NCBI GenBank assembly: GCA_020882975.1
Contig: JAHRFD010000006.1
Span: 1 to 64,000, forward strand
Direction: 5' to 3'
Length of the DNA stretch: 64,000 nucleotides
From: Microcoleus sp. EPA2
GTDB lineage: Bacteria > Cyanobacteriota > Cyanobacteriia > Cyanobacteriales > Microcoleaceae
Under the pieces are notes generated by a model that saw only the letters and a program-made list of their open reading frames with translations, was not told the origin of the DNA and did no database searches. Of this stretch, positions 46,378 through 60,326 are shown in pieces (within the stretch, counting starts at the first letter, position 1; each line of letters opens with the position of its first letter). The position numbers were made by a program, and so were the translations under genes.

Positions 46378-46568
46378 TTACTTCTAAATATTAAGTAATT
46401 TTGATAATTTTTACTCTACCTCAAAGCAGAGAAATTAAGCTCATTATATGTAACTCACGACCGAGGTTGTATCCTATCGCCCATCGCACAATGGATGACG
46501 AAGGTGAACACAGCTAAAGTCTGAATTGCTCAGATTTTAACAACAGAACTCAGTGGAGAGATAGAGTT

Positions 46569-47252
46569 ATGTTTTTTCATAAAAAACAATTGATGGCTGC
46601 GGTAAAGGTAGACGAAGCCAACCCTCGTTTTGCCCAACTACTACTAGAACAGTTTGGGGGAGCTACCGGAGAACTGACAGCAGCTCTGCAATACTGGGTG
46701 CAGTCCTTTCACTGTGAAGATCCACAGATTAAGGATATGCTACAAGATATTGCGATCGAAGAATTCAGCCATTTAGAAATGGTTGGCAAACTCATCGAAT
46801 CACACACCAAAAATGTTGACCAAACAGAAGCTTACAAAAGCACTTTGTTTGCTGTGCGAGGTGTAGGCCCCCATTTGTTGGACAGCCAAGGTCAAGCTTG
46901 GACGGGAGCTTATGTCAACGAAGGTGGCGATGTGGTGCGCGATTTACGTGCTAATATCGGTGCGGAAGCCGGAGCTCGCCAAACCTACGAAGCATTGATT
47001 AATCTGGCACCGGATGCGGGTACCAAAAAGACGCTGCACTTCTTGCTGACTCGCGAAATTTCTCACACTGAAATGTTTATGAATGCTCTGGAATCTATGG
47101 GCAAACTTACCGATCCCATGTTTGGTAATATTCCGCCAGATTCCACTGTGGATCTTTTCTTTAACTTGTCTAGCGATGGCAAGGATCAACCCACTGCTTT
47201 GAATTCAGAACCCAATTTCAAGTATATCGCCGATCCTGCTCCTCAAGGTTAA
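46569..47252 (+). CDS. Manganese catalase
   Basis: A 227-residue dimanganese catalase that dismutates hydrogen peroxide. The ligand helices are visible: GGATGELTAALQYW, IAIEEFSHLEMVGK (E and H ligands), GAEAGARQTYEAL and LTREISHTEMF (E and H). It has the typical length for the short cyanobacterial form. A GGAGAG ribosome site precedes it. Downstream is a strong palindrome at 47282. Confidence 0.93.
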   Translation: MFFHKKQLMAAVKVDEANPRFAQLLLEQFGGATGELTAALQYWVQSFHCEDPQIKDMLQDIAIEEFSHLEMVGKLIESHTKNVDQTEAYKSTLFAVRGVGPHLLDSQGQAWTGAYVNEGGDVVRDLRANIGAEAGARQTYEALINLAPDAGTKKTLHFLLTREISHTEMFMNALESMGKLTDPMFGNIPPDSTVDLFFNLSSDGKDQPTALNSEPNFKYIADPAPQG

Positions 47253-47281
47253 TTAGAAGATTTGGCAACTAGAATTGCATC

Positions 47282-47314
47282 AGAACCCCGACTTCTTAAA
47301 GAAGTCGGGGTTCT
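47282..47314. terminator. Perfect 16-bp palindrome after manganese catalase
   Basis: AGAACCCCGACTTCTT (47282-47297) pairs exactly with AAGAAGTCGGGGTTCT (47299-47314) around one base. It is of the same family as 23721. No T run follows, so it may act as an mRNA-stabilising hairpin or a mobile spacer repeat rather than a classical terminator. Confidence 0.6.
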
Positions 47315-47398
47315 AGGTGTTCTGTTTGTTGAGTAGTTTCGGCTGGAAGATGTTATAGTTGTTGAAGATTCCGATCGACCATTAACATCACATCCATA

Positions 47399-48160
47399 TT
47401 GAAATTGCGATCGACCTATTTATTAGTCTCTCACGGCAGTCGTGACCCCCGACCCCAAGTCGCTTTGGAAAACCTAGCTCAACTGCTGTCTCAAAAATTA
47501 CCCATGTGGAGCACTTCTGGCGCTTCCGGTGTTCCCACAGTCGGAACCGCCACCTTAGAGTTGGGCCCGGCGCCACTACACGAGCAAATTTGCCGTTTTG
47601 CCGAAGATACCCTCTCCCTGGGATTGACAGAATTACAAATCTTACCCATATTTTTATTGCCCGGTGTTCATGTCGCTGAAGACATACCGGCAGAGGTAGA
47701 AATTGCCCAAAAAACTCTTTCTCCTAAACTGAAAATTGAATTGCTGCCCCATTTGGGAACCCAAGAAGCAGGTTTAGCTAACTTGGTGAAAACTCAGATG
47801 CAAGAGGTGGCTTTTCTCCCCAATTTGCGAGTTCCAAAATGGATTTTACTCTCTCATGGTAGTCGCCGTCCGTCCGGGAACTTGACAGTGGAGGAAATAG
47901 CTAACCAAGTGGGTGCTGTAGCAGCTTATTGGTCGGTAAAGCCGAGTTTGGAATCACAAATTGAGAGTTTAGTTCGTGATGGACAGCAGCAAATTGGCAT
48001 TGTGCCATACTTCCTATTTAAGGGAGGAATTACAGATGCGATCGCCAAAAAAGTTACAGAATTACAGCAGCAATTTTCCACAGCCGAAATTCATCTAGCA
48101 AATCCTCTAGGAGCAACTGTAGAGTTAGCAGACTTAATTGGGGAGTTAATTAAACAATGA
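47399..48160 (+). CDS. Sirohydrochlorin chelatase (CbiX family)
   Basis: A 253-residue enzyme. Two tandem CbiX-type halves are visible: TYLLVSHGSRDPR and ILLSHGSRRPS, each with the HGS histidine motif, and PLFLLPGVHV-like (PIFLLPGVHVAEDI) and GIVPYFLFKGGITD segments. It inserts Co or Fe into sirohydrochlorin for cobalamin or siroheme. Start is TTG at 47399. It overlaps or abuts the methyltransferase gene, so the pair makes and metallates precorrin-2-derived sirohydrochlorin. Confidence 0.9.
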   Translation: MKLRSTYLLVSHGSRDPRPQVALENLAQLLSQKLPMWSTSGASGVPTVGTATLELGPAPLHEQICRFAEDTLSLGLTELQILPIFLLPGVHVAEDIPAEVEIAQKTLSPKLKIELLPHLGTQEAGLANLVKTQMQEVAFLPNLRVPKWILLSHGSRRPSGNLTVEEIANQVGAVAAYWSVKPSLESQIESLVRDGQQQIGIVPYFLFKGGITDAIAKKVTELQQQFSTAEIHLANPLGATVELADLIGELIKQ

Positions 48161-48204
48161 ACCGCAAAGATACACAAGAGGCAAAACAAAAACAAGAGGT
48201 AACA

Positions 48205-48981
48205 ATGTCTGTTGGTAAAGTTTATTTGGTAGGTGCAGGGCCAGGAGATCCAGGTTTGATGACGGTGAAAGGAAAAGCTTTGTTACAGTGTGCCGATGTC
48301 GTGATTTACGACGCTTTAGTCAGCGCTCAAATTTTGGAATTAATCAACCCCCAAGCAGAACGAATAGATGCGGGGAAACGTCGCGGCCGCCATTCCCTAA
48401 TCCAAGACGAAACTACTCAATTATTGATCGAAAAAGCTCAAGATAATGCGATCGTTGTTCGTCTCAAAGGTGGCGATCCGTTTATCTTCGGCCGTGGTGG
48501 CGAAGAAATGGCAGATTTGGTCAAAGCAGGAGTTTCTGTAGAAGTAGTTCCCGGTATCACTTCTGGGATTGCAGCAGCAGCCTATGCGGGAATTCCCTTA
48601 ACCCATCGATCGTACAGTTCCTCTGTCACTTTTGTGACCGGTCACGAATCAGCGGGAAAATATCGACCAGAGGTAAATTGGCAGGCGATCGCCCACGGCT
48701 CCGAAACCATTGTAATATACATGGGAATTCACAATTTACCATACATCATCGGCCAGTTGACAGCAGCCGAATTGAGTGCCGAAACGCCGATAGCTTTGGT
48801 GCGTTGGGGAACGCGACCGGAACAGGAAGAATTGATCGGAACTTTGGCTACAATTGTAGAGCAAGTTGAGACGACTGGATTTGCAGCACCGGCGATCGCG
48901 GTAATCGGAAATGTCGTCAATTTGCACGGTATATTGTCGGGATGTCGGCCTGTTCATCAGACGGTAGAATCAACAAATTAG
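48205..48981 (+). CDS. cobA: Uroporphyrinogen-III C-methyltransferase
   Basis: A 258-residue SAM enzyme that makes precorrin-2. VYLVGAGPGDPGLMTVKG at the start, RLKGGDPFIFGRGGEE, and VPGITSGIAAAAYAGIPLTHR are the family's signatures. I chose ATG 48205 (AGAGG 7 bases upstream), since the conserved fold begins there. An ATG at 48157, overlapping the cbiX stop in ATGA, would add 16 charged residues whose DNA resembles the dispersed ACCGCAAAG spacer repeat. It follows cbiX and supplies its substrate via precorrin-2 dehydrogenase, not in this window. Confidence 0.93.
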   Translation: MSVGKVYLVGAGPGDPGLMTVKGKALLQCADVVIYDALVSAQILELINPQAERIDAGKRRGRHSLIQDETTQLLIEKAQDNAIVVRLKGGDPFIFGRGGEEMADLVKAGVSVEVVPGITSGIAAAAYAGIPLTHRSYSSSVTFVTGHESAGKYRPEVNWQAIAHGSETIVIYMGIHNLPYIIGQLTAAELSAETPIALVRWGTRPEQEELIGTLATIVEQVETTGFAAPAIAVIGNVVNLHGILSGCRPVHQTVESTN

Positions 48982-49434: not shown

Positions 49435-50457
49435 TCAGCAATCCAAGTATTTCTTCGCAGCTTGAAAACCATGTTGGTCAGCAATCCGCAGGGCTTTATT
49501 CCACATATCCTGTCTTTTTCTCGCTATTCCCTTCTGATGCTTAGCAAGATTGCTCGGACTTGCATTGCTGTTGTGTACCAGCTTCAAAACAGCGGCATTA
49601 AGACACTGTTTTAGCTCTTTTTCTTGAGCCGAACTGAGTTCCCCTTCCAACTCCCTGTCTTCAGGCAACATCTCGTGCTGATAGCGCTGATTGATAGCAC
49701 GCGATCGACGCAGTGCTTGGTTAGCTTGCTGGGGACTACTCAGAACCCCGTAGGTGTGTTTTGCGAGCGATCGTACAGCCGTTTGTGGTGTCACCGGAAC
49801 TCCCTGAGCGCGTTGCTGATTAATGCTGGCTGCGGTGCGACGAACTATAGTAGGAAGTGTTTGTACTAACGGACGGGTACTAGGGCTGCGTCGCAAGTTT
49901 TTCGTAGCAGCAGCTAACCCACTAATTAAATTAGGAGCAGCACGCATAATCGCAGGAGCAACTTGAGGAATAAGCTGTGCAGCCAGTGGCAGTAATGCCC
50001 CAATAAAAGCTTCTGCCTCAGCTTCGCTTTCTGCCGTAGCTGCCGCGTATCCCAGGTGTTCCATCAGCCCATCGGTATAGTGCTGCTGGTTGTGCTGTAT
50101 TTCCCCTGCCATTTCCAACTCGAACTCAAACTCATTATCCTTGGGCAAAAGACTCGCGAGTCCTCCACCTAAAGCCGCTCCCAAAGATTGCCCCATAACT
50201 GCTGATGCTGCTGGGCCAACACGCAATTTTCTGCCAGCCACCGCTCCCAAAGCCGCACCTGCCGCAGGCAATCCTTGTACCAGAACCTCTCTCGCACTGT
50301 TGGTGGCTATCTTCTTCCACCCTGGATTTGGGGCGGGCGGCGACTTCCCATCTCCACCTTCAAACTCTCCTTGTAATTGGCTTTCCCATTCGTTTTCAAA
50401 TTCATATTCCCCTGCTAATAAAGATTCGAGTTCGTATTCAGACATAGTTCCGTACAT
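49435..50457 (-). CDS. Glu/Tyr/Phe-repeat protein A of the unusual cluster
   Basis: A 340-residue protein. Residues 1-40 are acidic-aromatic (EYELESLLAGEYEFENEWE). Then comes a Gly/Ala-rich block, a second acidic-aromatic stretch EFEFELEMAGE, and a C-terminal module with SEAEAEAFIGALLPLAA, SPSTRPLVQTLPTIVRRTA and a PQTAVRSLAKHTYGVLSSP helix. This module recurs in the proteins at 55425 and 56277. An extra C-terminal 90 residues (about 250-340) are unique, with lysine-rich tail. ATG 50457 has AGGAG 8 bases upstream. No family with known function is recognised. It is last in the cluster. Confidence 0.7.
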   Translation of the reverse strand: MYGTMSEYELESLLAGEYEFENEWESQLQGEFEGGDGKSPPAPNPGWKKIATNSAREVLVQGLPAAGAALGAVAGRKLRVGPAASAVMGQSLGAALGGGLASLLPKDNEFEFELEMAGEIQHNQQHYTDGLMEHLGYAAATAESEAEAEAFIGALLPLAAQLIPQVAPAIMRAAPNLISGLAAATKNLRRSPSTRPLVQTLPTIVRRTAASINQQRAQGVPVTPQTAVRSLAKHTYGVLSSPQQANQALRRSRAINQRYQHEMLPEDRELEGELSSAQEKELKQCLNAAVLKLVHNSNASPSNLAKHQKGIARKRQDMWNKALRIADQHGFQAAKKYLDC

Positions 50458-50676
50458 CGTCATTGCTCCTAGTTTTTAGTTGTTAGTTTTTTCGTCCTTT
50501 TTCTGTTTCCCAAAGCGGACACCGAAGCAGTGTCGCGAATACCTGGGAATGGTTGTGCAAACCTAAATCCGGCGGAAATAATCCCTCAATTCTTTTAGTC
50601 TGCGGAAGCCGAATTCCTGTGGCAAGAAGCGGTTTCAACCGCCGAAAAATAGAGGAGGTAAATTTAAATTTCCACT

Positions 50677-51801
50677 TTAACCAGGTTCCGCACTTCTCAA
50701 ACCTCTCCCACCATTGCGACGCGAATCAAGCGGCACAACTCGCTGCGTATGACCCCGAAAAGCTATGCCCAAAGTTTCAGCACTGGTCAGCCATTCTTCG
50801 GCATTATCTGCAATTTCTCGCAGCAAAGCTTCAAACTCAGCACGCGATGTTTTGAGGATGTGTTTGTGCGCCAACCAGCGAATCAGTTCTCGTCCAGAAA
50901 CAGCCATCCGGTGACGCTGAGAAGCATCGACATTTTCCTTGAAATAACGCAGCATTACTTCTTCCACAACATCCCAAGCATTGTCTGCACCAAACAGTTT
51001 TCTCACATCTTCAGCATTGAGAATTGTGAATGCTTCTTCCAGCAATTGCAGCACTTCAATCCGAAAGACATTGACGTGTCCGTAGGAAGACCATTTCAAG
51101 TTATTTCGCAAATCTAAACCCGCTCGCCTGACGGTAGCAATACTGCCAAAACTGGGGTCAAAAGCTCGATCGCGAATCACATCTGAGATCCGTTTATCGC
51201 GCCAAAATTCGGCTACATTATTGATGAATTGCGTGAATAACGGGTGAAATTTAGTGTTAGGTTGAGCGCTGGGCATCAGTTCGACAGGAGTATATCCCAA
51301 TACCCGTCGATAGGTTTGCATCCGTTGTTTTTGGGTATAGCGCAAAACGCTACGGCGATCGAACCGATACAAACCGTAAGCACCATCACCAGTCGATAAT
51401 CTCACAGTACCAGCATTGAATAATTCTTGCAGTTTCCAAACAGAGCGAAAAACCCCTAATTTCTCGTGCTGATAGAGATAGTAAAGGTCAGCAACTGCTA
51501 GAATTCGTTCGGAAGCAACTTGCTCGTCGTAGTCTTCAACTTTTTCGGGCAAGCGAGTTGAACTGACTTTAGTGGCGGCATCTTTGCCAATACCGATTAA
51601 TTCGGCTAAACCACCATCTGGCGGCGCTTGAATTTGGCTATCGGCAGCTACCAGTTGCGAAACTATGGTCTCGATTTGCTGAGTTAAAGCATCGGCTAGC
51701 TGTGGGTTTTGGATCAACTGAGGGGCGAGTTTTTCAGTGAGAGTTTCCCTCAGAGCAGCAATGCGATCGTATAAACTTTGATTGTCTCCAGTCGTGGACA
51801 T
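50677..51801 (-). CDS. Helical protein of unknown function in the cluster
   Basis: A 374-residue protein, predicted mainly alpha-helical, soluble, no signal peptide or membrane helix. Notable segments: YDRIAALRETLTEKLAPQL at the start, GDGAYGLYRFDRRSVLRYT near 155, and HVNVFRIEVLQLLEEAF near 265. The last 20 residues are arginine/glycine-rich (RRNGGRGLRSAEPG). I recognise no family. It lies 99 bases after the transthyretin-like gene and 213 bases before protein A on the same strand. Confidence 0.6.
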   Translation of the reverse strand: MSTTGDNQSLYDRIAALRETLTEKLAPQLIQNPQLADALTQQIETIVSQLVAADSQIQAPPDGGLAELIGIGKDAATKVSSTRLPEKVEDYDEQVASERILAVADLYYLYQHEKLGVFRSVWKLQELFNAGTVRLSTGDGAYGLYRFDRRSVLRYTQKQRMQTYRRVLGYTPVELMPSAQPNTKFHPLFTQFINNVAEFWRDKRISDVIRDRAFDPSFGSIATVRRAGLDLRNNLKWSSYGHVNVFRIEVLQLLEEAFTILNAEDVRKLFGADNAWDVVEEVMLRYFKENVDASQRHRMAVSGRELIRWLAHKHILKTSRAEFEALLREIADNAEEWLTSAETLGIAFRGHTQRVVPLDSRRNGGRGLRSAEPG

Positions 51802-51900
51802 AATTGAGTCTCCTAGCTGAAAGTTTCAGGCGAGTTGCTGTTAATTTGCGAACACACTCCCAGCGGAGTGTTTGTGAGCTAAAATTTTTTATGACAGAAG

Positions 51901-53676
51901 TTATCTGCCTGGTAGGCTATTTGTTTCACCACTATTTAGCGCCAAAATGTCATCCCGGTCGTCGATAAAGTAAGGCGGTATAGGTGAAATTAAGGCTGAT
52001 GCTAATCGTTTGACTTGATAAATTTGGAATGCCAAATCGCGCAGGGAACGCAGGACACCTGCCCGATTGAAAGCAGTGTTGCGAAGGGGAATATAAGAAG
52101 CAGCTTGCACCAAAATCATCAGTCTTTCTGCCGTTTCGGCAATGGTTTTGGCAATGCCTAACTTGCCACCATCTTTAGCAATTGCCGGCCATTCTTTAGT
52201 CGCCGCCAGCAAAGCCCATGAGAGCAATGATTCCACTGTCATTGGTGGGACTAATTGTCTGACTTGGGAAATGGGGTATCCAGTACCATCCGGCAGCAGG
52301 AAAGCAATCTCACCACTATCCAATTTTTCATCTCTTGCCTTGGTGAAATCAAGCCATACTGCCTGTCTTTCCGCAGGACCGAGGAAGACTAGATCCATAA
52401 TCCGATAAACTTCTTGAACTGATTCTGCAACCACTGACAAAGCTTGCGACAATAGCACCAGTTGTGGCCCGACAAAAGCACCAGCACCAGAATTATTGAT
52501 ATAAGCATTCCAGCTAGATCTCAGAGAAGCAATGTAATCTCTGATAATCAAAAAGTTGCTGTAATTTTGTTCTTCATCGACGGTGTTAATGCGCGATCGA
52601 GTCAGCCCAAACATATCAGCTAAATCTTTAAGCTGTCCTGCAACTATTTCCGGTTCATTAGGATTAACATCGCCAATTAACAATTGGAATAAGCTTTCAA
52701 CTCGCTGAGCGCGAGGCCCGCCTTGAGTTCCCATTTCGTTGACTAATTCAGTGATTTCAGTGCGCACAATTGAGCGAGTAGCTTCAAGATTTTGCCCATC
52801 GGCATTTGTATCTAGTGGATAGAGTTTGTTCAGTAGCGGCAGCATTTCATTGAAAGCAGCTTTGGCGCGGTGATAAAGGCTAGCTTGCGCTCCCGTTAGC
52901 ATACCACCGAGTTCAGTTTGTACGGTGGCATAAGCACGAGGAGTCCATACATAATCAGTGCGCCCGTTACTTTCTTGAGGTGCAAAAGCTTGTGTTATAG
53001 AAGCGCGCAACATTTGTGCATCTCCTACCTTAAGATTGCGGCCTAAAACTTCACTAAAAGCACTATCTACCATCTGCTGCAACGAGCCACCTTGACTATC
53101 AATAACAGCATAAGAATTGCGAATCCCAGAGCTAGAAACTTGGTCTAAAGTTGGCAAAATATCCACCACTGTATCTTCGGTAATTCTTCGATTTTCGATG
53201 ATTTGGCGTTGAGTAATTTGGTCAATTAGTTCTTCAATTCTGAGTGTTTCAATGCTGTATTCACTGGGATTATTTGTGTCTACGAACAGAGGTACTGAAC
53301 TAGAAAAAAAACCTCCCGGTGTTGGCAGAACAATCGCAATATTGGAAGTCCTGCCGTTGTCGCTAATGCCAACAAGTTCTCGGCCGCGAAATACTTGGAA
53401 GAAAAGTTCGATTCTAGTTTCAGATTCTAGGGGTTCTGGCCGATAATTTTCGTCTGTAAACTCGATCTCGAAAAACCCTCTGGAGTCTGTTTTTCCGCTG
53501 CCTAGGCGATCGTCAAATTTCAAGTCTTTGTCCCAAGCTTCGACTCTTAAACCTGCTTCTGGGGCAGATTGAGTTGTTGGTGTTGGTGTTGGTATTTGTG
53601 TTGGAACATTTGTGATTACTTGTCCCCGAATGCGATAAGTTGTCATTCTCATTTCTCCTGTTTGGTAATTGGTCAT
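51901..53676 (-). CDS. Protein with transthyretin-like N-terminal domain, cluster member
   Basis: A 591-residue protein. Residues about 10-125 form a beta-sandwich of transthyretin-like or carboxypeptidase-regulatory type: TTYRIRGQVITN, LRVEAWDKDLKFDDRLGSGKTDSRGFFEIEF and IELFFQVFRGRELV. The remaining 460 residues are helical, with LPLLNKLYPLDTNADGQNLEA and a MFGLTRSRINT segment. A first ATG at 53676 gives MTNYQTGEMRM; the start could be at the MTTYRIRG ATG about 10 residues later. No enzyme motif is seen. It may be a scaffold or cargo-binding partner; function unknown. Confidence 0.65.
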   Translation of the reverse strand: MTNYQTGEMRMTTYRIRGQVITNVPTQIPTPTPTTQSAPEAGLRVEAWDKDLKFDDRLGSGKTDSRGFFEIEFTDENYRPEPLESETRIELFFQVFRGRELVGISDNGRTSNIAIVLPTPGGFFSSSVPLFVDTNNPSEYSIETLRIEELIDQITQRQIIENRRITEDTVVDILPTLDQVSSSGIRNSYAVIDSQGGSLQQMVDSAFSEVLGRNLKVGDAQMLRASITQAFAPQESNGRTDYVWTPRAYATVQTELGGMLTGAQASLYHRAKAAFNEMLPLLNKLYPLDTNADGQNLEATRSIVRTEITELVNEMGTQGGPRAQRVESLFQLLIGDVNPNEPEIVAGQLKDLADMFGLTRSRINTVDEEQNYSNFLIIRDYIASLRSSWNAYINNSGAGAFVGPQLVLLSQALSVVAESVQEVYRIMDLVFLGPAERQAVWLDFTKARDEKLDSGEIAFLLPDGTGYPISQVRQLVPPMTVESLLSWALLAATKEWPAIAKDGGKLGIAKTIAETAERLMILVQAASYIPLRNTAFNRAGVLRSLRDLAFQIYQVKRLASALISPIPPYFIDDRDDILALNSGETNSLPGR

Positions 53677-53735
53677 TAGTTATTAGTCATTGGTCATTAG
53701 TCATGGGCATCAATGTCAATAAAGGGTTTTTTCGT

Positions 53736-53794
53736 CAGGCGGGTTTATTTAATCTGTTTGCAACCTTTAAGAGTGCTGGTGAACCCGCCCCTAC
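53736..53794. repeat. GTAGGGGCGGG palindromic element, copy 3
   Basis: GCGGGTTTATTT at the left and GGTGAACCCGCCCCTAC at the right form an inverted pair like those at 26451 and 30654. It sits in the spacer between two cluster genes, flanked by tandem TTGGTCATT-type and TTGACTATT-type units. Confidence 0.6.
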
Positions 53795-53877
53795 AGGCTA
53801 TTAAGAATGATGCAAGATATCACTTAATCCCTCTACTATTGACTACTAACTGTTGACTATTGACTATTGACTAAAAA

Positions 53878-55260
53878 CTATCTGCGTGCCAAAGCTTTGT
53901 AGAAGTTGTCGGTAATTACTCCCGGTTCTGCTAACTTTTTATCTAAGGCCCACCTAGAGGCAGGAATTAAGAACCGTTCGGGAATAATTCCGGGGTCATT
54001 TCCTTTGGCTAAACGCTCGCCTGCTTCTTCAATCATTCGCTGGTGGTGTGGCTTAAATCCAGTTACTTCAGCTAGGGTTTTACCGCCTAGTTGTTGGTAT
54101 TGGGTAAAGCAAATAGTGTCTACTACCAGTTGATTTGCTTGACTGAATGTTGATAGTAATTCTGAGGGAAGATTCCCGGCGCGGGGATTGGGATAAATGC
54201 GCTGCCACATCTGGCTATATCTGTCAGCTTCTTCGGGAAATCCCATGCGCTTCAGCAATTCAATGCTGATGAATACTCGCAGATAAGGAACAGGATGTGG
54301 CGCACCAGCATGGAAGTACAAAGTAGATTGAGTCGATCGCGCAGCAATATCCATTAGCGATGCTACAATTCCAGGCCCACCTAGCAGCAAACCAGACATA
54401 TCGGCAAAGGTTTCACTATGCCAGTTAGTCCAAGTTGTGGCAACCATTCGGCTCATTCCAGCTTTGAGCAAACGCTGGGCGATCGCCCTGGGAATAGCCT
54501 GTCGCAAGTTCAAATCTGTTTGTAAATTATGCGAAACTTCATGCAAAACTGCTCCCAATGTCCAAGGATTAATCAAGCGGTGATATGGTAATTGAATTAA
54601 CGGAAATGGATTGATTTGCTGTCCGAGTTTGCTGAGAGGAATCCCGCGCCTAAATGTCGCTGGTGAAAATCCTGTTTTCATGTACGAAAATGGTGCGGGT
54701 GCGGGAATTGATTGGGCAATTCCCAATCCCATATAAACGTCTTGATAGCAGTCAAGGGCAATGCGATCGCAACCCAGTAACCAATTACCAAATTTACTCT
54801 GTCTTTGTCCGAACAACTCGAAATAAAAATCCCAAATTTGTTCGATCGCTCTTACCCAATCGTGAGCACGATCTTTGCGAGACATCAGTTGTTGCAGGTG
54901 TTTGGTATCCGGTTCGCGGATGGCTATTTCTGCGATATTCCCGACTTTTTTCGACATATCCATCAATTGCACTCTCAGGGAACTAATTAGCTCATTAACA
55001 GCATCGATGTGAGCGTCAGAAGGACTAGCCGGATCTGTACCAAACTCGTCGTGTTGGAAGGGACGCAAAGCAGCAGCGTGTCTGGTAACATTGAGGGCTT
55101 GTACTCTCAGCCAAGGTTTTAAACTAGGCAATTTTATTTGTGATTTAAGTGCAGAGTTATTGTGTTCAAAACCATTCAAAATCTTCAATTCATAGGCATC
55201 CTCATCTGTTTCTAAATCTGTTAATGTTTCTAACAGTCCGTTCATATTTTTTATCCCCAA
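53878..55260 (-). CDS. HExxH zinc metallopeptidase of the cluster
   Basis: A 460-residue protein. LHEVSHNLQTD near 239-249 is a HExxH zinc site and WHSETFADMSGLLLGG near 282-297 supplies the third ligand glutamate (ExxxD), the gluzincin arrangement. No signal peptide or membrane helix is seen, so it acts in the cytoplasm or leaves by another route. It is followed 201 bases later by the transthyretin-like protein gene. It may process the Glu/Tyr/Phe-repeat proteins, but this is inference from position alone. Confidence 0.72.
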   Translation of the reverse strand: MGIKNMNGLLETLTDLETDEDAYELKILNGFEHNNSALKSQIKLPSLKPWLRVQALNVTRHAAALRPFQHDEFGTDPASPSDAHIDAVNELISSLRVQLMDMSKKVGNIAEIAIREPDTKHLQQLMSRKDRAHDWVRAIEQIWDFYFELFGQRQSKFGNWLLGCDRIALDCYQDVYMGLGIAQSIPAPAPFSYMKTGFSPATFRRGIPLSKLGQQINPFPLIQLPYHRLINPWTLGAVLHEVSHNLQTDLNLRQAIPRAIAQRLLKAGMSRMVATTWTNWHSETFADMSGLLLGGPGIVASLMDIAARSTQSTLYFHAGAPHPVPYLRVFISIELLKRMGFPEEADRYSQMWQRIYPNPRAGNLPSELLSTFSQANQLVVDTICFTQYQQLGGKTLAEVTGFKPHHQRMIEEAGERLAKGNDPGIIPERFLIPASRWALDKKLAEPGVITDNFYKALARR

Positions 55261-55424
55261 GCATGAACCAGATATAGCCGAAGGAAAAATGAATAATTAA
55301 GCATGAAGTATGCTTTTAATAAATTGGACAGAGCGCTAGGGAAACTCAACATCATCAATTTAAAAGTTATTGATCTAATTTTAAAGTTCTTATGTTGAGT
55401 TTCGTTACTTCAACCAAACCTAAT

Positions 55425-56234
55425 TTAAGCGCAGCGGCATTTCCCATTAATTTTCGGCTGCAATTGATGTTGCACTTTATGGGATTTTTTCATTACTGTG
55501 TTAACTTTTTTGGGGTTGTCTAAGACTTTAGCTGTATTAGCTGCTAGTGCCCTCACAGCAGTTTTTTGTGAGAGTGGTTTGCCTTGTGCTACTTGATGAG
55601 CTAGGGTCTTGACAGTTCCTTTCAAAACTTCTGGAACAGTCTGCAAAAGTTGGCGCGTACTGGGGCTGTTGTACAGAGCACGACCCATTTTTGCTACTCC
55701 TTGAATTAGCTGGGGAGCGACAGCAGAAATTGCTTTAGCCGCTGAGGGAATCAATCGTGTTGCCATCGGCACTAAGGCTCCTAAAAAAGCTTCTGATTCG
55801 GCTTCACTTTCGCTGTGAGCTGCTCTGTAAGCCAGATTTTCCATGATCATTTCGTACTCGCTCATGGAACTAGATCGCGAACTAGAACTAGAAGGAGATT
55901 CAAATTCGGACTCAAATTCGTATTCGTACTCATACTCGCCTTCGCCTAGTCCGATCGCACTTCCCAATCCCTGTAGCAAATTGCCGATAAAAGGATCGCC
56001 TTCGTATTCGCTTTCGTACTGGCCTTCGTACTCCCCTTCGTACTCGAATTCAAACTCTCGCTGCCGATTTCTCCGTCGCCCTCCAATTAAGCCACCAATG
56101 GCCTTAATTGCCATCGGAGCAGCTTTGGCGAGCAAGGGGACTAAGAAAGGTAAAAATTCCTCGCTTTCGTACTCGCTGGCGAATTCGCATTCATATTCGC
56201 GATCGAGATTGGTTTCTAATTCGTATTCAAACAT
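55425..56234 (-). CDS. Glu/Tyr/Phe-repeat protein B of the unusual cluster
   Basis: A 269-residue protein. It opens MFEYELETNLDREYECEF and has an alanine/glycine hydrophobic block (FLPFLVPLLAKAAPMAIKAIGGLIGG) and a basic RRRNRQR, then EFEYEGEYEGQYESEYEG and a second run EYEYEFESEFES. The C-terminal module is as in A and C: SESEAESEAFLGALVPMA, SPSTRQLLQTVPEVL, QKTAVRALAANTAKVLDNP. I chose ATG 56234 because AGAGG is 7 bases upstream and acidic repeats begin directly. The stop of protein C is only 42 bases before this start. Function unknown. Confidence 0.75.
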   Translation of the reverse strand: MFEYELETNLDREYECEFASEYESEEFLPFLVPLLAKAAPMAIKAIGGLIGGRRRNRQREFEFEYEGEYEGQYESEYEGDPFIGNLLQGLGSAIGLGEGEYEYEYEFESEFESPSSSSSRSSSMSEYEMIMENLAYRAAHSESEAESEAFLGALVPMATRLIPSAAKAISAVAPQLIQGVAKMGRALYNSPSTRQLLQTVPEVLKGTVKTLAHQVAQGKPLSQKTAVRALAANTAKVLDNPKKVNTVMKKSHKVQHQLQPKINGKCRCA

Positions 56235-56276
56235 TTTTTCACCTCTGTTTCTGTGTGTTGGCAACTCCAACTGCTC

Positions 56277-57128
56277 TTACTCGTAAACGGGCTGTCTTCT
56301 GCGCTTCTGTGTTTTTGCAGGTAATGGTTTGTTAACTTTGCTAGCAGCGCCGGACGATCGCATTAAAGTCTTGGCACAAGTCATGGGATTTCCTAATACC
56401 TTGCGGGTTTCAGCAGCCATGACGCGAGCGGCTGTTTGCGGTGCGATGGGTTTTCCTTGAGCTGCTTGCCGCGCTAGGGTATTGCTAGCTCTGGCAACAA
56501 TCGTGGGTACTGTTTTTACCAGTGGGCGAGTGGCCGGAGATTTGCGCAAAGTCCGGGTTAATGTGGCCGCACCCTTGACTAATTTGGGCGAAATTTGCCG
56601 CATTGAATGGGATTTAATCGGGATAATTCGAGCAGTAAAAGCACCTGTATAGGCTTCTGCTTCTGCTTCGCTTTGTACCTGACTTGCCATGGCTGCGAGT
56701 GCTTCTGCTAAGGCTTCCGGCTGCGGTGCAGATTCGGATTCGTACTCGCTCTCAAATTCACCTTCAAACTCGTATTCGCTCTCATATTCGTATTCGCTTT
56801 CGCGCGCAAGTTGACCTGCGATCGCCCCTACTGCTTGACCCACACCGGGCCCACCAATCGCAGTACCCACAGCTCGAGCTGCGATGGGTGCAACTTGTTT
56901 GAGTATGGGAGCTAATTTGCGAGCAAATCCACGAATTTTTTTGAAGAAAGCTTCACTTTCATATTCATTTTCGTACTCATACTCGCCTTCACCCATTCCT
57001 CCCAATACGCCACCACTTCCTTGCATCAGGCTACCAAAAAACTCTTCGCCCTCGTATTCGCTTTCGTATTCGTAATTTCCTTCGCCCTCGAATTCGTTTT
57101 CAAATTCGCGTTCCAATTCGTGTTGCAT
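56277..57128 (-). CDS. Glu/Tyr/Phe-repeat protein C, first gene of the unusual cluster
   Basis: A 283-residue protein. Acidic aromatic runs (EFENEFEGEGNYEYESEYEG, then EGEYEYENEYESE and EYEYESEYEFEGEFESEYE) alternate with two hydrophobic-cationic blocks: MQGSGGVLGGMG and ARKLAPILKQVAPIAARA followed by GTAIGGPGVGQAVGAIAGQ. The C-terminal module is shared with A and B (SEAEAEAYTGAF, SPATRPLVKTVPTIVARA, PQTAARVMAAETRKVLGNP). ATG 57128 follows GGAG by 5 bases; 57146 and 57167 are in-frame alternatives. It is the first gene of the cluster and lies just downstream of a perfect palindrome at 57217. Confidence 0.75.
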   Translation of the reverse strand: MQHELEREFENEFEGEGNYEYESEYEGEEFFGSLMQGSGGVLGGMGEGEYEYENEYESEAFFKKIRGFARKLAPILKQVAPIAARAVGTAIGGPGVGQAVGAIAGQLARESEYEYESEYEFEGEFESEYESESAPQPEALAEALAAMASQVQSEAEAEAYTGAFTARIIPIKSHSMRQISPKLVKGAATLTRTLRKSPATRPLVKTVPTIVARASNTLARQAAQGKPIAPQTAARVMAAETRKVLGNPMTCAKTLMRSSGAASKVNKPLPAKTQKRRRQPVYE

Positions 57129-57167
57129 TGTTTCTCCATCTAGCATTGCGTGACCCCTTGTTTGCAT

Positions 57168-57524: not shown

Positions 57525-58277
57525 TCAGCTTGAGGTACCACTACAAGTTGCTACAATTTGCTTGAGAATTCGGTCTAACGCCTTGGGGTTATCCAGATTC
57601 ACCGCTTGTAGCAGGCCCGAATCCACCAGTGCGGGGGCCCGATCGTCTTCCACCGTTCCATTCAACGCCGCCACCAAAATATCTGCCGTTCGTCCACTGC
57701 CTGCGATCGCCACGATCGGGTGTTTTGCCTTCACGCTCTCCTGTGCATCTTTCCAAGTAATTTCTCCGCCATTCACCAACACCGTCACCGAGGGGCAAAA
57801 GCCAGATAAGGTGCGGGCAATCTGTGCGATCCACGCCGACTCATCCCCCCATTGCGAACCCGGAACCAGAACAAAATGGGTGTGATGGGGTTCTAAGGCA
57901 CAGGCATCTTCTGCTGGAGGTGGCTGATTCGGTAATGTTGCCAAACCGACGGCGGTAACGCCAATCAGAGGAAAAGTGCCACCCGTTTGGTAACGAGCCT
58001 CCCCCATCATTTGCATAATACCCGCATCGGTTCCGCCATCGAGGACGTAGGCATTTAAGGACTCGGCGAGAGGAGCTAGGACTGTTAGAAAGAGCGATCG
58101 CAACCGTTCCCGATCGACTTCGCTGAGTTTACTGGCACCGCCCACCACCACGATGACCGGACGCGGACTAGAGAGTCCCAGTTGCTCTAGAGTTAAGGTC
58201 AGGTCGGCATTGGCTTGAGGATAGAGAGCTGTTGCCGTCAGACCGTTGGCAAATTCGATCGAGAAAGATTCTTGCAT
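57525..58277 (-). CDS. TRPM-like SLOG (LSDAT) domain protein
   Basis: A 250-residue protein of one domain. VIVVVGGASKLSE near 42, YVLDGGTDAGIMQMMGEA near 79, FVLVPGSQWGDESAWIA near 131 and VTVLVNGGEITWKDAQ near 166 form the SLOG Rossmann-like fold seen in TRPM channels and in bacterial nucleotide-sensing proteins. It probably binds a nucleotide or ADP-ribose-like ligand. No effector domain is attached. ATG 58277 is preferred to 58292, as MQESFS is closer to the fold. It lies upstream of the unusual cluster on the same strand, but 357 bases away. Confidence 0.75.
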   Translation of the reverse strand: MQESFSIEFANGLTATALYPQANADLTLTLEQLGLSSPRPVIVVVGGASKLSEVDRERLRSLFLTVLAPLAESLNAYVLDGGTDAGIMQMMGEARYQTGGTFPLIGVTAVGLATLPNQPPPAEDACALEPHHTHFVLVPGSQWGDESAWIAQIARTLSGFCPSVTVLVNGGEITWKDAQESVKAKHPIVAIAGSGRTADILVAALNGTVEDDRAPALVDSGLLQAVNLDNPKALDRILKQIVATCSGTSS

Positions 58278-58621
58278 GAACAAAAAATACAACTCAGGAT
58301 AGGAGAATCGCTTCCGGGGACATAGTGTTATTATGTCCTGAAAAGAAGGTCTATTGCTTCAATCCAGCCTTATCGTCTTGCCGTCCGGACTAAATGCCAC
58401 TGATTTGACCCCACCCTCATGCCCGCAGCACCGTGACTTTATTCCCTTTCCGGTCCATTGGTAACAAGTTAGAAGGAAGTAGATTTTGTCAATACCCCTT
58501 TATGTAGAAATATAATTGAATAATAATGATAATCAAACAAGGGGTAAGGGTGGGAGAGTCCCCGACGGCGGACTCTCCCACCGGCAGTGATTATCATTAT
58601 TAATAAGTTGTTCGCTGACTC

Positions 58622-58893
58622 TAGTCGCGGGCGATCGATAAGAGTCGCGGGCGATCGATAAGAGTCGCAGGCGATCGATAAGAGTCGCAGGCGATCGATA
58701 AGAGTCGCGGGCGATCGATAAGAGTCGCGGGCGATCGATAAGAGTCGCGGGCGATCGATAAGAGTCGCAGGCGATCGATAAGAGTCGCGGGCGATCGATA
58801 AGAGTCGCAGGCGATCGATAAGAGTCGCAGGCGATCGATAAGAGTCGCGGGCGATCGATAAGAGTCGCGGGCGATCGATAAGAGTCGCGGGCG
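58622..58893. repeat. 20-bp minisatellite inside the IS4 element
   Basis: The unit AGTCGCRGGCGATCGATAAG is repeated about 13 times with a partial 14th, differing at a single G/A site. Each unit contains GGCGATCGAT, a HIP1-like core. Unit length is not a multiple of three, and all three frames are only accidentally open. It is non-coding and not a CRISPR array, as there are no spacers. Confidence 0.9.
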
Positions 58894-58952
58894 TTGGTAT
58901 GATCAAACGATATAATTGACAAATAATTGAGCGATTGTGTAGGTCAGTAAAT

Positions 58953-60326
58953 ATGGCTAAAAGTCAAAAAACCAACCGTGACCACGCCAAAAAAACCACA
59001 AGACCGATGGTGGAAGATGAGGCAATCGCCTCGCAACTATCTGCATTATTAACACCAGCCATCACCTCACAAGAAAATTACTACCGTCAACTGGGTTTAC
59101 GAGGTAGAATTCTCAACTTACCGTTGATGGTAGCAGCAGTATTAACCTTGCTATGGCGAGACGTAGCTGGAGTGACAGAACTCACAAGAATGCTAGCAAG
59201 AGAAGGTTTTTTGTGGTGCGGACCCACAACAGTCACTCAACAAGCAATGTCTCAAAGATTTTTAAGTTTTCCTGCCACTTTATTTGAAGGAGTCTTCAAA
59301 AATTTATTACCAAGTTTAAGAACTGCTTGGTATCAGAGAAACCAAAGACCTCTACCAGAAAGCATTCAATTTGCCTTGACTAAATTTTCCCGAATTTGGA
59401 TAGTGGATAGCTCAACACTCGAAGCATTATTTTGTAAGCTCAAAAGCCTGGAAGATATACCCAAAGGGCAGTTGGCAGGAAAAATGGCAACAGTCATAGA
59501 TTTAATGACCAGGCTTCCTGCCGAGATTTGGTTTTTGGAAAATCCCAGAGCTTCTGATGTTAAGCTTGAAGAAAATATTCTGCAATTAGTCCCAACTCAA
59601 ACCTTACTTTTACTGGATAGAGGATTTTATCATTTTAGTTTTTGGCTCAAATTAATTGAACGAGATATCCACTTAATTACTCGTTTGAAAAAAGGAGCAT
59701 CAATTAAAGTAGAGCAAGTATATACCAAGAGTTACGAACTCCGAGATAGTCGGATACGGCTAGGCTCAGGAACTTCAAAAACTCCATTTATTACCTTACG
59801 TTTGATTGAAGTTCGTTCCGGTAAAATTTGGCATTCTTATTTGACAAGCGTACTAGATCCTCATGTATTACCTCCCTACGTCGTCGCAGATTTATATCGC
59901 AGGCGCTGGAGGATTGAAGATGCTTTTAATACCGTAAAAAGGCTTTTGGGATTAAGTTATTTGTGGACAGGTTCTCTCAACGGCATCCAGCTTCAAATTT
60001 GGGGGACTTGGATATTTTATGCACTCTTGGTTGATTTAGGTGATGCCGTTGCTGACCAACTCTCTTTACCAATAGATTCGATTTCATTAGAAATGATTTA
60101 CCGGGGTCTTTACCATTTTTATGTGGCTCATCAAAAAGGTAAGGCAACTGACTTGATCGAGTATTTCGCCGCGCCCGAAAACCAAGATTTAGGTATTGTT
60201 AAATCTCAACGAAAGCCCAATGTTAAGTTAATTGTTTCACCTTTCCCTGATCGACAGCGAGGCAATCACCAATTTTTCTTTGATGCCTCTTCTGAAATCC
60301 CCTTGACAACTGGCATACAGGCTTAA
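58953..60326 (+). CDS. IS4-family transposase
   Basis: A 457-residue DDE transposase. WIVDSSTLE (first D), LLLDRGFYHF (second D) and YRRRWRIEDAFNTVKR are visible; the last shows the Y-x2-R-x3-E-x6-K signature of IS4. The reading frame is intact, so the element may be active. ATG 58953 begins MAKSQKTNRD; a TTG at 58935 is also in frame. It fills the right 70 percent of the element. Confidence 0.93.
   Translation: MAKSQKTNRDHAKKTTRPMVEDEAIASQLSALLTPAITSQENYYRQLGLRGRILNLPLMVAAVLTLLWRDVAGVTELTRMLAREGFLWCGPTTVTQQAMSQRFLSFPATLFEGVFKNLLPSLRTAWYQRNQRPLPESIQFALTKFSRIWIVDSSTLEALFCKLKSLEDIPKGQLAGKMATVIDLMTRLPAEIWFLENPRASDVKLEENILQLVPTQTLLLLDRGFYHFSFWLKLIERDIHLITRLKKGASIKVEQVYTKSYELRDSRIRLGSGTSKTPFITLRLIEVRSGKIWHSYLTSVLDPHVLPPYVVADLYRRRWRIEDAFNTVKRLLGLSYLWTGSLNGIQLQIWGTWIFYALLVDLGDAVADQLSLPIDSISLEMIYRGLYHFYVAHQKGKATDLIEYFAAPENQDLGIVKSQRKPNVKLIVSPFPDRQRGNHQFFFDASSEIPLTTGIQA

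Follow-up and report, generated by a model that had tools for sequence, protein, structure and literature searches.

Which kind of system is encoded by a set of six genes that match no named family in the libraries searched? This question is raised by positions 49435-57167 of a 64,000-nucleotide stretch of Microcoleus sp. EPA2 (contig JAHRFD010000006.1, positions 1 to 64,000 of the forward strand; in the following called the window). Here, six co-oriented open reading frames (ORFs), named A, B, PEP, TTR, HEL and C, are located on the minus strand. An earlier note, made from the sequence letters alone, had described three related proteins (A, B and C), a HExxH peptidase, a transthyretin-like protein and a helical protein, and had proposed an undescribed system without any known core gene. 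The coordinates and the strand of all six ORFs were verified. The kinship of A, B and C, the peptidase motif and the helical protein were likewise confirmed by blastp, motif search and structure modelling, respectively. Our analysis suggests that the six genes represent one copy of an uncharacterised, polymorphic-toxin-like effector system, in which PEP would mature tagged proteins. We assign a probability of about 0.45 to this reading.

The curated cut-offs of Pfam and NCBIfam were reached by none of the six proteins. The PHROG library yielded nothing significant (best E-value 0.055), and none of the six matched the anti-phage defence models of PADLOC at E≤0.1. The closest family hint was a sub-threshold match of TTR to the transthyretin-like family PF01060 (E 0.011, 16.8 bits versus a cut-off of 24.9 bits). 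The conserved gene set and gene order described below agree with the proposal of an undescribed system. We consider it nearly certain that this gene system, which has no family names in the searched libraries, is real and conserved.

Conservation was analyzed in a set of 100 loci which comprised the window, locus L023 from a Paraburkholderia plasmid, 18 stretches from genomes of the window's class and 80 loci from GTDB contigs. For the latter, 156 of the 242 matched stretches encode a PEP relative and the best 80 were kept. Ninety-two of the 100 loci are distinct, eight pairs being the same record; over-extended ORF starts in GC-rich loci leave the presence calls unaffected. PEP was present in all 100 loci, HEL in 89, the domain common to A, B and C in 82 and TTR in 77. 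Contig ends account for at least part of the missing genes. HEL follows PEP in the same orientation in 88 of the 89 loci having HEL, and TTR does so in 76 of 77; both exceptions stem from a single locus, L107. A protein with the A/B domain was located upstream of PEP in each of the 82 loci where one was found. This conservation of order and strand is far above chance expectation. Clustering assigned a LuxR-type regulator to 74 loci, and its membership of the LuxR/GerE family was confirmed on four examples.

Of 242 genomes of the window's class, 19 encode a PEP homologue, the window's own genome counted; the homologue on the Paraburkholderia plasmid showed 62% identity. A HEL profile built from 54 sequences matched strongly (E below 1e-120) in precisely these 19 genomes. 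A distant HEL match (E 6e-24 to 6e-30) belonging to another cluster was detected in five more genomes and as a second copy in G109. The earlier note had named scattered homologues or an unrelated pathway for the peptidase as outcomes that would speak against a system. Since PEP and close HEL were found in the same 19 of 19 genomes and the genes stay together in order, the proposed system withstood this comparison.

Eighteen loci of Myxococcota, Thiocapsa, one Chromatiales bin and part of the cyanobacteria showed a variant arrangement, termed type-2. Here, the positions of A and B are taken by another acidic cluster of proteins (CL5) and the position of TTR by a large protein, BIG2, which follows PEP in the same orientation in 18 of the 18 loci having it. 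In two Thiocapsa loci one protein of the CL5 pair matched the A/B/C model. Homology of TTR and BIG2 was unsupported, because hhalign gave a probability of 0.3%; therefore, we speak only of the same position. In 15 type-2 loci (L036-L043, L114, L115, L117-L120, L122) a DUF4438 protein follows HEL, and in the cyanobacterial and Thiocapsa type-2 loci an unnamed 'RRWACVLDPTLALS' protein is also found after HEL.

PEP contains the motif HEVSH (residues 240-244), E283 and D287. HExxH was present in all 100 loci; its continuation by W..E..xD was detected by a regular expression in 93 and by eye in the remaining seven (WNREIFGD). In an alignment of 17 diverse PEP members, rhizobial proteins included, H240, E241, H244, E283 and D287 were invariant. 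HExxH together with ExxxD is what we take to be the gluzincin pattern of clan MA(E). Judged from its sequence, PEP is thus predicted to be a gluzincin-like zinc metallopeptidase. No Pfam family, DUF4157 included, matched PEP, and sequence and profile searches against solved structures gave no convincing relative (best profile E 0.71). A role of PEP in a housekeeping pathway was rejected because PEP occurs in only 19 of the 242 genomes, accompanies HEL and is missing from G123, a genome of the same genus. Very distant PEP-like proteins (23-25%) are encoded on plasmids of Bradyrhizobium (L024) and Sinorhizobium (L025), which were excluded from the set of 100 loci. The neighbourhood of the former contains CHAT, S8/S53, patatin and phospholipase D genes, that of the latter CHAT and C25 genes.

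The slot after HEL, which is occupied by C in the window, differs in content from locus to locus. We scanned 23 proteins from this slot against Pfam, hand-picked and in many cases chosen for acidic N-termini. Ten exceeded a curated cut-off: seven are murein-related, two are nucleases and one is an M35 peptidase (Table 1). For DUF2272, the Extensin-like domain and OmpA combined with DUF4056 the link to murein is our assumption. A beta-lactamase-like match of the L109 protein remained slightly under its cut-off. The labels Zn-phospholipase-like, REase-like and GIY-YIG-like (the last for L060/L071), assigned by eye, were dropped as no significant Pfam match was obtained.

Two N-terminal modules were found joined to different C-terminal domains. 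Module X, consisting of an acidic-aromatic tag plus 'GRRGQAGR...', occurs in L027, L028, L030, L047 and L048, with identities to L027 of 90% for L028 and 65-75% for the other three. It carries three different tails, one in L027/L028/L030, another in L047 and a GIY-YIG nuclease in L048. The L047 stretch had no convincing relative in the PDB (best E 0.4). The first module of L048 was found in four of the 242 class genomes, all four of which are PEP-positive; it lies within 0.35 kb of HEL in three, and in the other the cluster contig ends near HEL. Module Y, shared by L045, L053 and L060/L071 (27-49% identity among the three types, E 7e-10 or better), likewise ends in three different tails. Only the GIY-YIG tail of L048 and the NS_2 tail of L045 have a Pfam match over the cut-off. 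Residues 275-336 of C resemble the tail of the module-Y protein L053 from another cyanobacterium (29% over 62 residues, E 2e-5 among 5596 ORFs), and no match of the C tail was found in plasmids. The variability of the slot after HEL and the joining of modules to different C-termini are new observations of this work.

Like A, B and C, these downstream proteins often contain acidic-aromatic sequences. In 20 downstream proteins acidic-aromatic triplets occurred at 0.67 per 100 residues compared to 0.21 in 143 uncurated control ORFs (3.2-fold), and at least two triplets were present in 11 of the 20 versus 26 of the 143, both comparisons being selection-biased. The bare tag pattern WLFEAP, searched as DNA in the 242 genomes, is weak because it occurred at 12 places in 10 genomes versus 8 for the reversed control (counted by eye). 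Its four clear N-terminal occurrences in longer ORFs were all located on contigs bearing PEP or HEL of this cluster (G145, G066, G017 and G204). A fifth was found in a short ORF of G070, a genome without PEP match, and at the other seven places the pattern either matched internally or was not part of such an open frame.

A, B and C are related to each other (blastp E 1e-28 for C and B, 9e-26 for C and A, 2e-26 for B and A) and have a C-terminal domain and acidic-aromatic segments in common. For their homologues, 143 of 145 sequences were used; excluded were proteins with PEP in the same ORF, with at least 600 residues or with an N-terminal part below 30 residues. The N-terminal parts contained 1240 acid-aromatic-acid triplets versus a mean of 146 (standard deviation 12) in 100 composition-keeping shuffles. 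The similar N-termini which the earlier note had suspected in other environmental bacteria were recovered within the homologues of this cluster. Of the 143 proteins, 139 carry a net negative charge in the N-terminal part and 141 a net positive charge in the C-terminal part, with median charges of -30 and +21, respectively, and a median net charge of -7. The charges of the two parts are anticorrelated (Spearman -0.71 overall, -0.81 for A, -0.52 for B; relatedness uncorrected). The A and B sets comprised 47 proteins each, from loci with exactly two A/B-type proteins before PEP. The length of the N-terminal part correlated with the C-terminal charge at 0.53 for A and -0.01 for B; consequently, part of the anticorrelation in A may reflect length. 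Between the two parts, A contains a cationic block that passes into a glycine-rich block, and B contains a hydrophobic block with Arg at its end. Both blocks look membrane-active by sequence, and we presume a likeness to antimicrobial peptides. A loose regular expression for the amphipathic block of A was matched by 17 of 47 A homologues and none of 47 B homologues.

The structure of HEL was modelled as all-helical (mean predicted local distance difference test score (pLDDT) 77.7, predicted template modelling score (pTM) 0.69). No known fold was recognised at E≤0.001, since the best Foldseek matches had E 0.11 in the PDB and E 0.12 among the viral structures of BFVD. The TTR model showed strands followed by helices (mean pLDDT 80.2, pTM 0.53). 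Its strand-rich N-terminus gave weak PDB fold matches; a lipoxygenase ranked best (E 0.007), and the matches that followed included C2 and transthyretin domains.

The closest parallel among known systems is provided by the polymorphic toxins, whose common N-terminal modules are joined to interchangeable C-termini, nucleases included, and for which peptidases with a releasing function and several export pathways are described in the relevant part of Zhang et al. 2012 (PMC3482391). The likeness follows from the swapped C-termini on common N-termini, the domains acting on murein and nucleic acids and the dedicated peptidase. In contrast to polymorphic toxins, the N-terminal parts of the present system are acidic-aromatic tags and unnamed modules, and a separate gene encodes the gluzincin-like peptidase. 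None of the export signatures named in that part of the source (Sec, type V, VI and VII secretion systems, Tc, Photorhabdus virulence cassette (PVC), PrsW, MuF) was present in the Pfam matches of the six proteins or of the scanned neighbours. Extracellular contractile injection systems (eCIS), in the part of their description considered here (PMC8213781), share a HExxH metallopeptidase (the DUF4157 PVC-metallopeptidase), a LuxR/GerE regulator, toxin-like cargo and a wide spread over environmental phyla. They differ from the present cluster in that no contractile-tail family was found among the proteins scanned here and PEP does not match DUF4157. Because the export signatures are missing and, for eCIS, also the sheath and DUF4157, we propose an uncharacterised system with its own core of A, B, PEP, TTR and HEL.

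In such a system A and B would be polyampholyte carriers, whose acidic-aromatic N-terminal part balances the basic C-terminal domain and whose amphipathic segments between the two look membrane-active. HEL and TTR may serve as core adaptor or scaffold proteins. C and the other variable genes after HEL would be cargo with acidic-aromatic tags or linkers and swappable nuclease, murein-acting or peptidase ends. PEP would process the tagged proteins, plausibly in or beside the acidic-aromatic segments, leading to their activation or release. We infer that such proteins would leave the cell and act on another bacterium rather than on the producer. That the cluster even represents a new class of effector delivery independent of known secretion machines, in which A and B carry or translocate tagged, exchangeable effectors, HEL and TTR form the apparatus and PEP is the releasing switch, appears doubtful to us.

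Several observations weigh against an effector system. Thirteen of the 23 hand-picked downstream proteins had no Pfam match over the cut-off, and the tail of the window's own C matched no known toxin family. A search for module Y in the 242 class genomes found none, so that four loci connect this module with the system. The tag is not universal downstream, with no acid-aromatic-acid triplet in the L101 protein and one in several others. Between C and the next window gene only ATG-initiated ORFs of up to 30 codons are present; no immunity gene was seen, without a systematic search. No LuxR gene is located beside the window's cluster. No known export gene was detected among the neighbours scanned, which were not all neighbours, and no signal peptide was seen by eye, no predictor having been run. 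Structures were modelled for HEL and TTR only, and neither had a close structural match. Finally, clustering assigned M20 peptidases to 26 of the 100 loci, amidohydrolases to 18, DUF4438 proteins to 15 and trypsin-like proteins to 7, the family names being confirmed on one example each. Many actinobacterial and acidobacterial loci contain M20 and others an amidohydrolase or DUF4438, with no recognised toxin. The M20, amidohydrolase and DUF4438 accessories do not fit a pure toxin reading.

These accessory peptidases would find a place if A and B were peptide precursors, which we consider unlikely. PEP would then excise cationic, amphipathic, antimicrobial-like peptides inhibited by acidic spacers of the same chain, and the M20 and trypsin-like enzymes would trim them. 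Such an arrangement agrees with the alternation of acidic-aromatic and cationic or hydrophobic blocks, the charge balance of the two parts and the presence of a protein with the A/B domain before PEP in 82 of the 100 loci. However, the best-conserved part of the A/B homologues is the C-terminal domain rather than a short peptide, the loose amphipathic pattern was matched by only 17 of the 47 A homologues, no peptide exporter was found among the scanned neighbours, and the murein-acting and nuclease domains of the same slot are left unexplained. The related idea of the earlier note that an acidic partner silences the cationic parts gained indirect support from the charge anticorrelation, while the variable nuclease and cell-wall genes point rather to tagged effectors. 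The polyampholyte composition with its modest net charge could also drive an intracellular assembly or condensate. In that case, acidic-aromatic stickers and basic C-termini would mediate phase separation of A and B, HEL and TTR would act as scaffold, and M20, amidohydrolase, DUF4438 or tagged enzymes would be the cargo. The non-toxin-like enzymes of many loci and the common tags, taken as packaging signals, are compatible with this. We regard it as quite unlikely, as nuclease and murein-acting cargo and swapped C-termini are not explained and HEL and TTR lack a significant fold match to any solved assembly.

The murein-acting domains would equally suit a lysis or regulated death of the producer, for instance upon infection, in which nucleases, murein hydrolases and membrane-active A and B hit the cell itself. 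The membrane-active-looking segments and the apparent lack of signal peptides, judged by eye, agree with such a role. Nevertheless, none of the six proteins matched PADLOC, cytoplasmic murein hydrolases would still need a route to the periplasm, and swapped effector domains are more typical of conflict between cells. Self-directed action is thus decidedly unlikely. Very unlikely is an operon encoding eCIS cargo, where tagged proteins would be loaded into a contractile particle encoded elsewhere and PEP would play the role of DUF4157. The traits shared with eCIS are described above, and a sheath match (PF04984) was found in 14 of the 19 PEP genomes versus 91 of the 223 others (p 0.007, uncorrected for genome size and relatedness). 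By contrast, the sheath was not found in five of the 19, namely the window's own genome (99.93% complete; other tail families were not searched), G024 (a single contig, 100%) and three more. Among the sheath matches listed, the nearest was about 150 kb away from the cluster (G118) and most were located on other contigs, and PEP has no match to DUF4157.

The five-gene core without a named family occurs in cyanobacteria, Actinomycetota, Acidobacteriota, Chloroflexota and on a Paraburkholderia plasmid, and in variant form in Myxococcota. In a PEP tree of 82 rows ten NCBI phylum-level groups were intermixed, Melainabacteria and Thermomicrobiota being kept separate from Cyanobacteriota and Chloroflexota; among the rows are several metagenome bins, in which stray contigs are possible. 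The tree needs 16 label changes (minimum 9, mean after shuffling 41.7), and its starred branches force at least three changes for Cyanobacteriota and at least four for Actinomycetota; long branches meet in this tree, and the counts are no proof of transfer. The window's PEP falls into an 11-row cyanobacterial clade (support 100/99) beside Scytonema and Brasilonema, and the PEP of the Paraburkholderia plasmid falls inside Acidobacteriota. Apparently, the cluster has been spread horizontally. A phage origin was rejected, PEP and HEL having no homologue in 50,697 phage records; a pattern scan of IMG/VR for PEP gave 48 pattern matches and no relative. In the open-access literature (PubMed Central) no paper on this cluster was found, which does not establish its absence from print. 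The lipocones paper (PMC12419801), in the part considered, was not relevant to the cluster. If the genes do encode an effector system, it would be an overlooked route of delivery or killing in common environmental bacteria, and further effectors could be traced through its tags. Even if they are no weapon, five co-conserved unnamed families represent a directly testable unit.

The features of the window's cluster and the downstream proteins with a Pfam match are listed in Table 1. The corrected starts of A (MLDGETMQ), B (MFEYELE) and TTR are likely, that of PEP is weak. They are based on homologue starts only for A, and on ribosome-binding sites and homologue starts for B, PEP and TTR.

Table 1. 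Features of the cluster in the window and Pfam assignments of proteins from the slot after HEL in other loci
Feature	Coordinates	Strand	Description
Gene A	56277..57167	-	Acidic-aromatic repeats, cationic/glycine-rich amphipathic block, C-terminal domain common to A, B and C; likely start 57146
Amphipathic cationic, then glycine-rich block of A (FFKKI...APILK...GTAIGGP)	56799..56948	-	From sequence reading and hydropathy
Gene B	55425..56270	-	A-like architecture, hydrophobic block then Arg; likely start ATG 56234
Gene PEP	53878..55260	-	Predicted zinc metallopeptidase, gluzincin-like; HExxH and ExxxD; probable start 55245
PEP active-site stretch	54400..54543	-	HEVSH (54529-54543) to E283...D287 (54400-54414); from alignment
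Gene TTR	51901..53676	-	Strand-rich, transthyretin-like N-terminal region and helical region; likely start 53646
Gene HEL	50677..51801	-	All-helical (model); most frequent partner of PEP
Gene C	49435..50463	-	A/B-type protein occupying the variable downstream slot
C-terminal extension of C, residues 263-342	49438..49677	-	Candidate effector domain; residues 275-336 resemble the C-terminus of L053
L101 downstream protein			M74 murein endopeptidase; Pfam over cut-off
L057 downstream protein			OmpA+DUF4056; Pfam over cut-off
L097 downstream protein			PG_binding+SLT; Pfam over cut-off
L034 downstream protein			PG_binding; Pfam over cut-off
L029 downstream protein			DUF2272; Pfam over cut-off
L133 downstream protein			Extensin-like C; Pfam over cut-off
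L049 downstream protein			PG_binding+OmpA; Pfam over cut-off
L059 downstream protein			M35 peptidase; Pfam over cut-off
L048 downstream protein			GIY-YIG nuclease; Pfam over cut-off
L045 downstream protein			NS_2 endonuclease; Pfam narrowly over cut-off

The same-genus genome G123 matched positions 46413-48970 of the window with about 81% DNA identity, the match ending with the gene before the cluster. Past 48970 it consisted of one 50-base stretch within the compared region, and PEP and HEL both had no match in G123. Consequently, the cluster sits in a variable region. On its other side, a gene of the SLOG/LSDAT (TRPM-like) family (57525-58292, minus strand; PF18171, 233 bits), also without DNA match in G123, adjoins A. 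A 20-bp unit in 13.6 tandem copies (58623-58893) directly precedes a transposase-like ORF (58935-60326, recognised by eye), which showed three DNA matches of 68-72% in the same-genus genome. In L023, about 8 kb from the Paraburkholderia cluster, PLSDB lists a predicted GIM beta-lactamase stretch (1837-1938) whose 102 bases are far too short for a gene.

The distant HEL homologues belong to a second unnamed cluster (L124-L129, L152, L153). It is similar to the PEP cluster in that a HEL homologue is located near a peptidase, and differs from it as an S8 peptidase replaces PEP and the other partners are different. No PEP, TTR or A/B/C-domain match was obtained in L124-L129 at E≤0.01, and the partner proteins received no family name in the scans made. 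The S8 assignment was derived from Pfam or annotation in L126, L152 and L153. The hosts are G122, G162, G034, G189, G214 and G109 for L124-L129, a Burkholderia pyrrocinia plasmid for L152 and a plasmid of Tolypothrix PCC 7712 for L153. The cyanobacterial copies encode unnamed partner proteins of about 360 and 760 residues, and in several of them proteins with an NRLLALEQ-like N-terminal motif and acidic stretches were observed. In B. pyrrocinia a nearby protein of 1254 residues contains murein-amidase and papain-like domains (amidase, C92 and C70).

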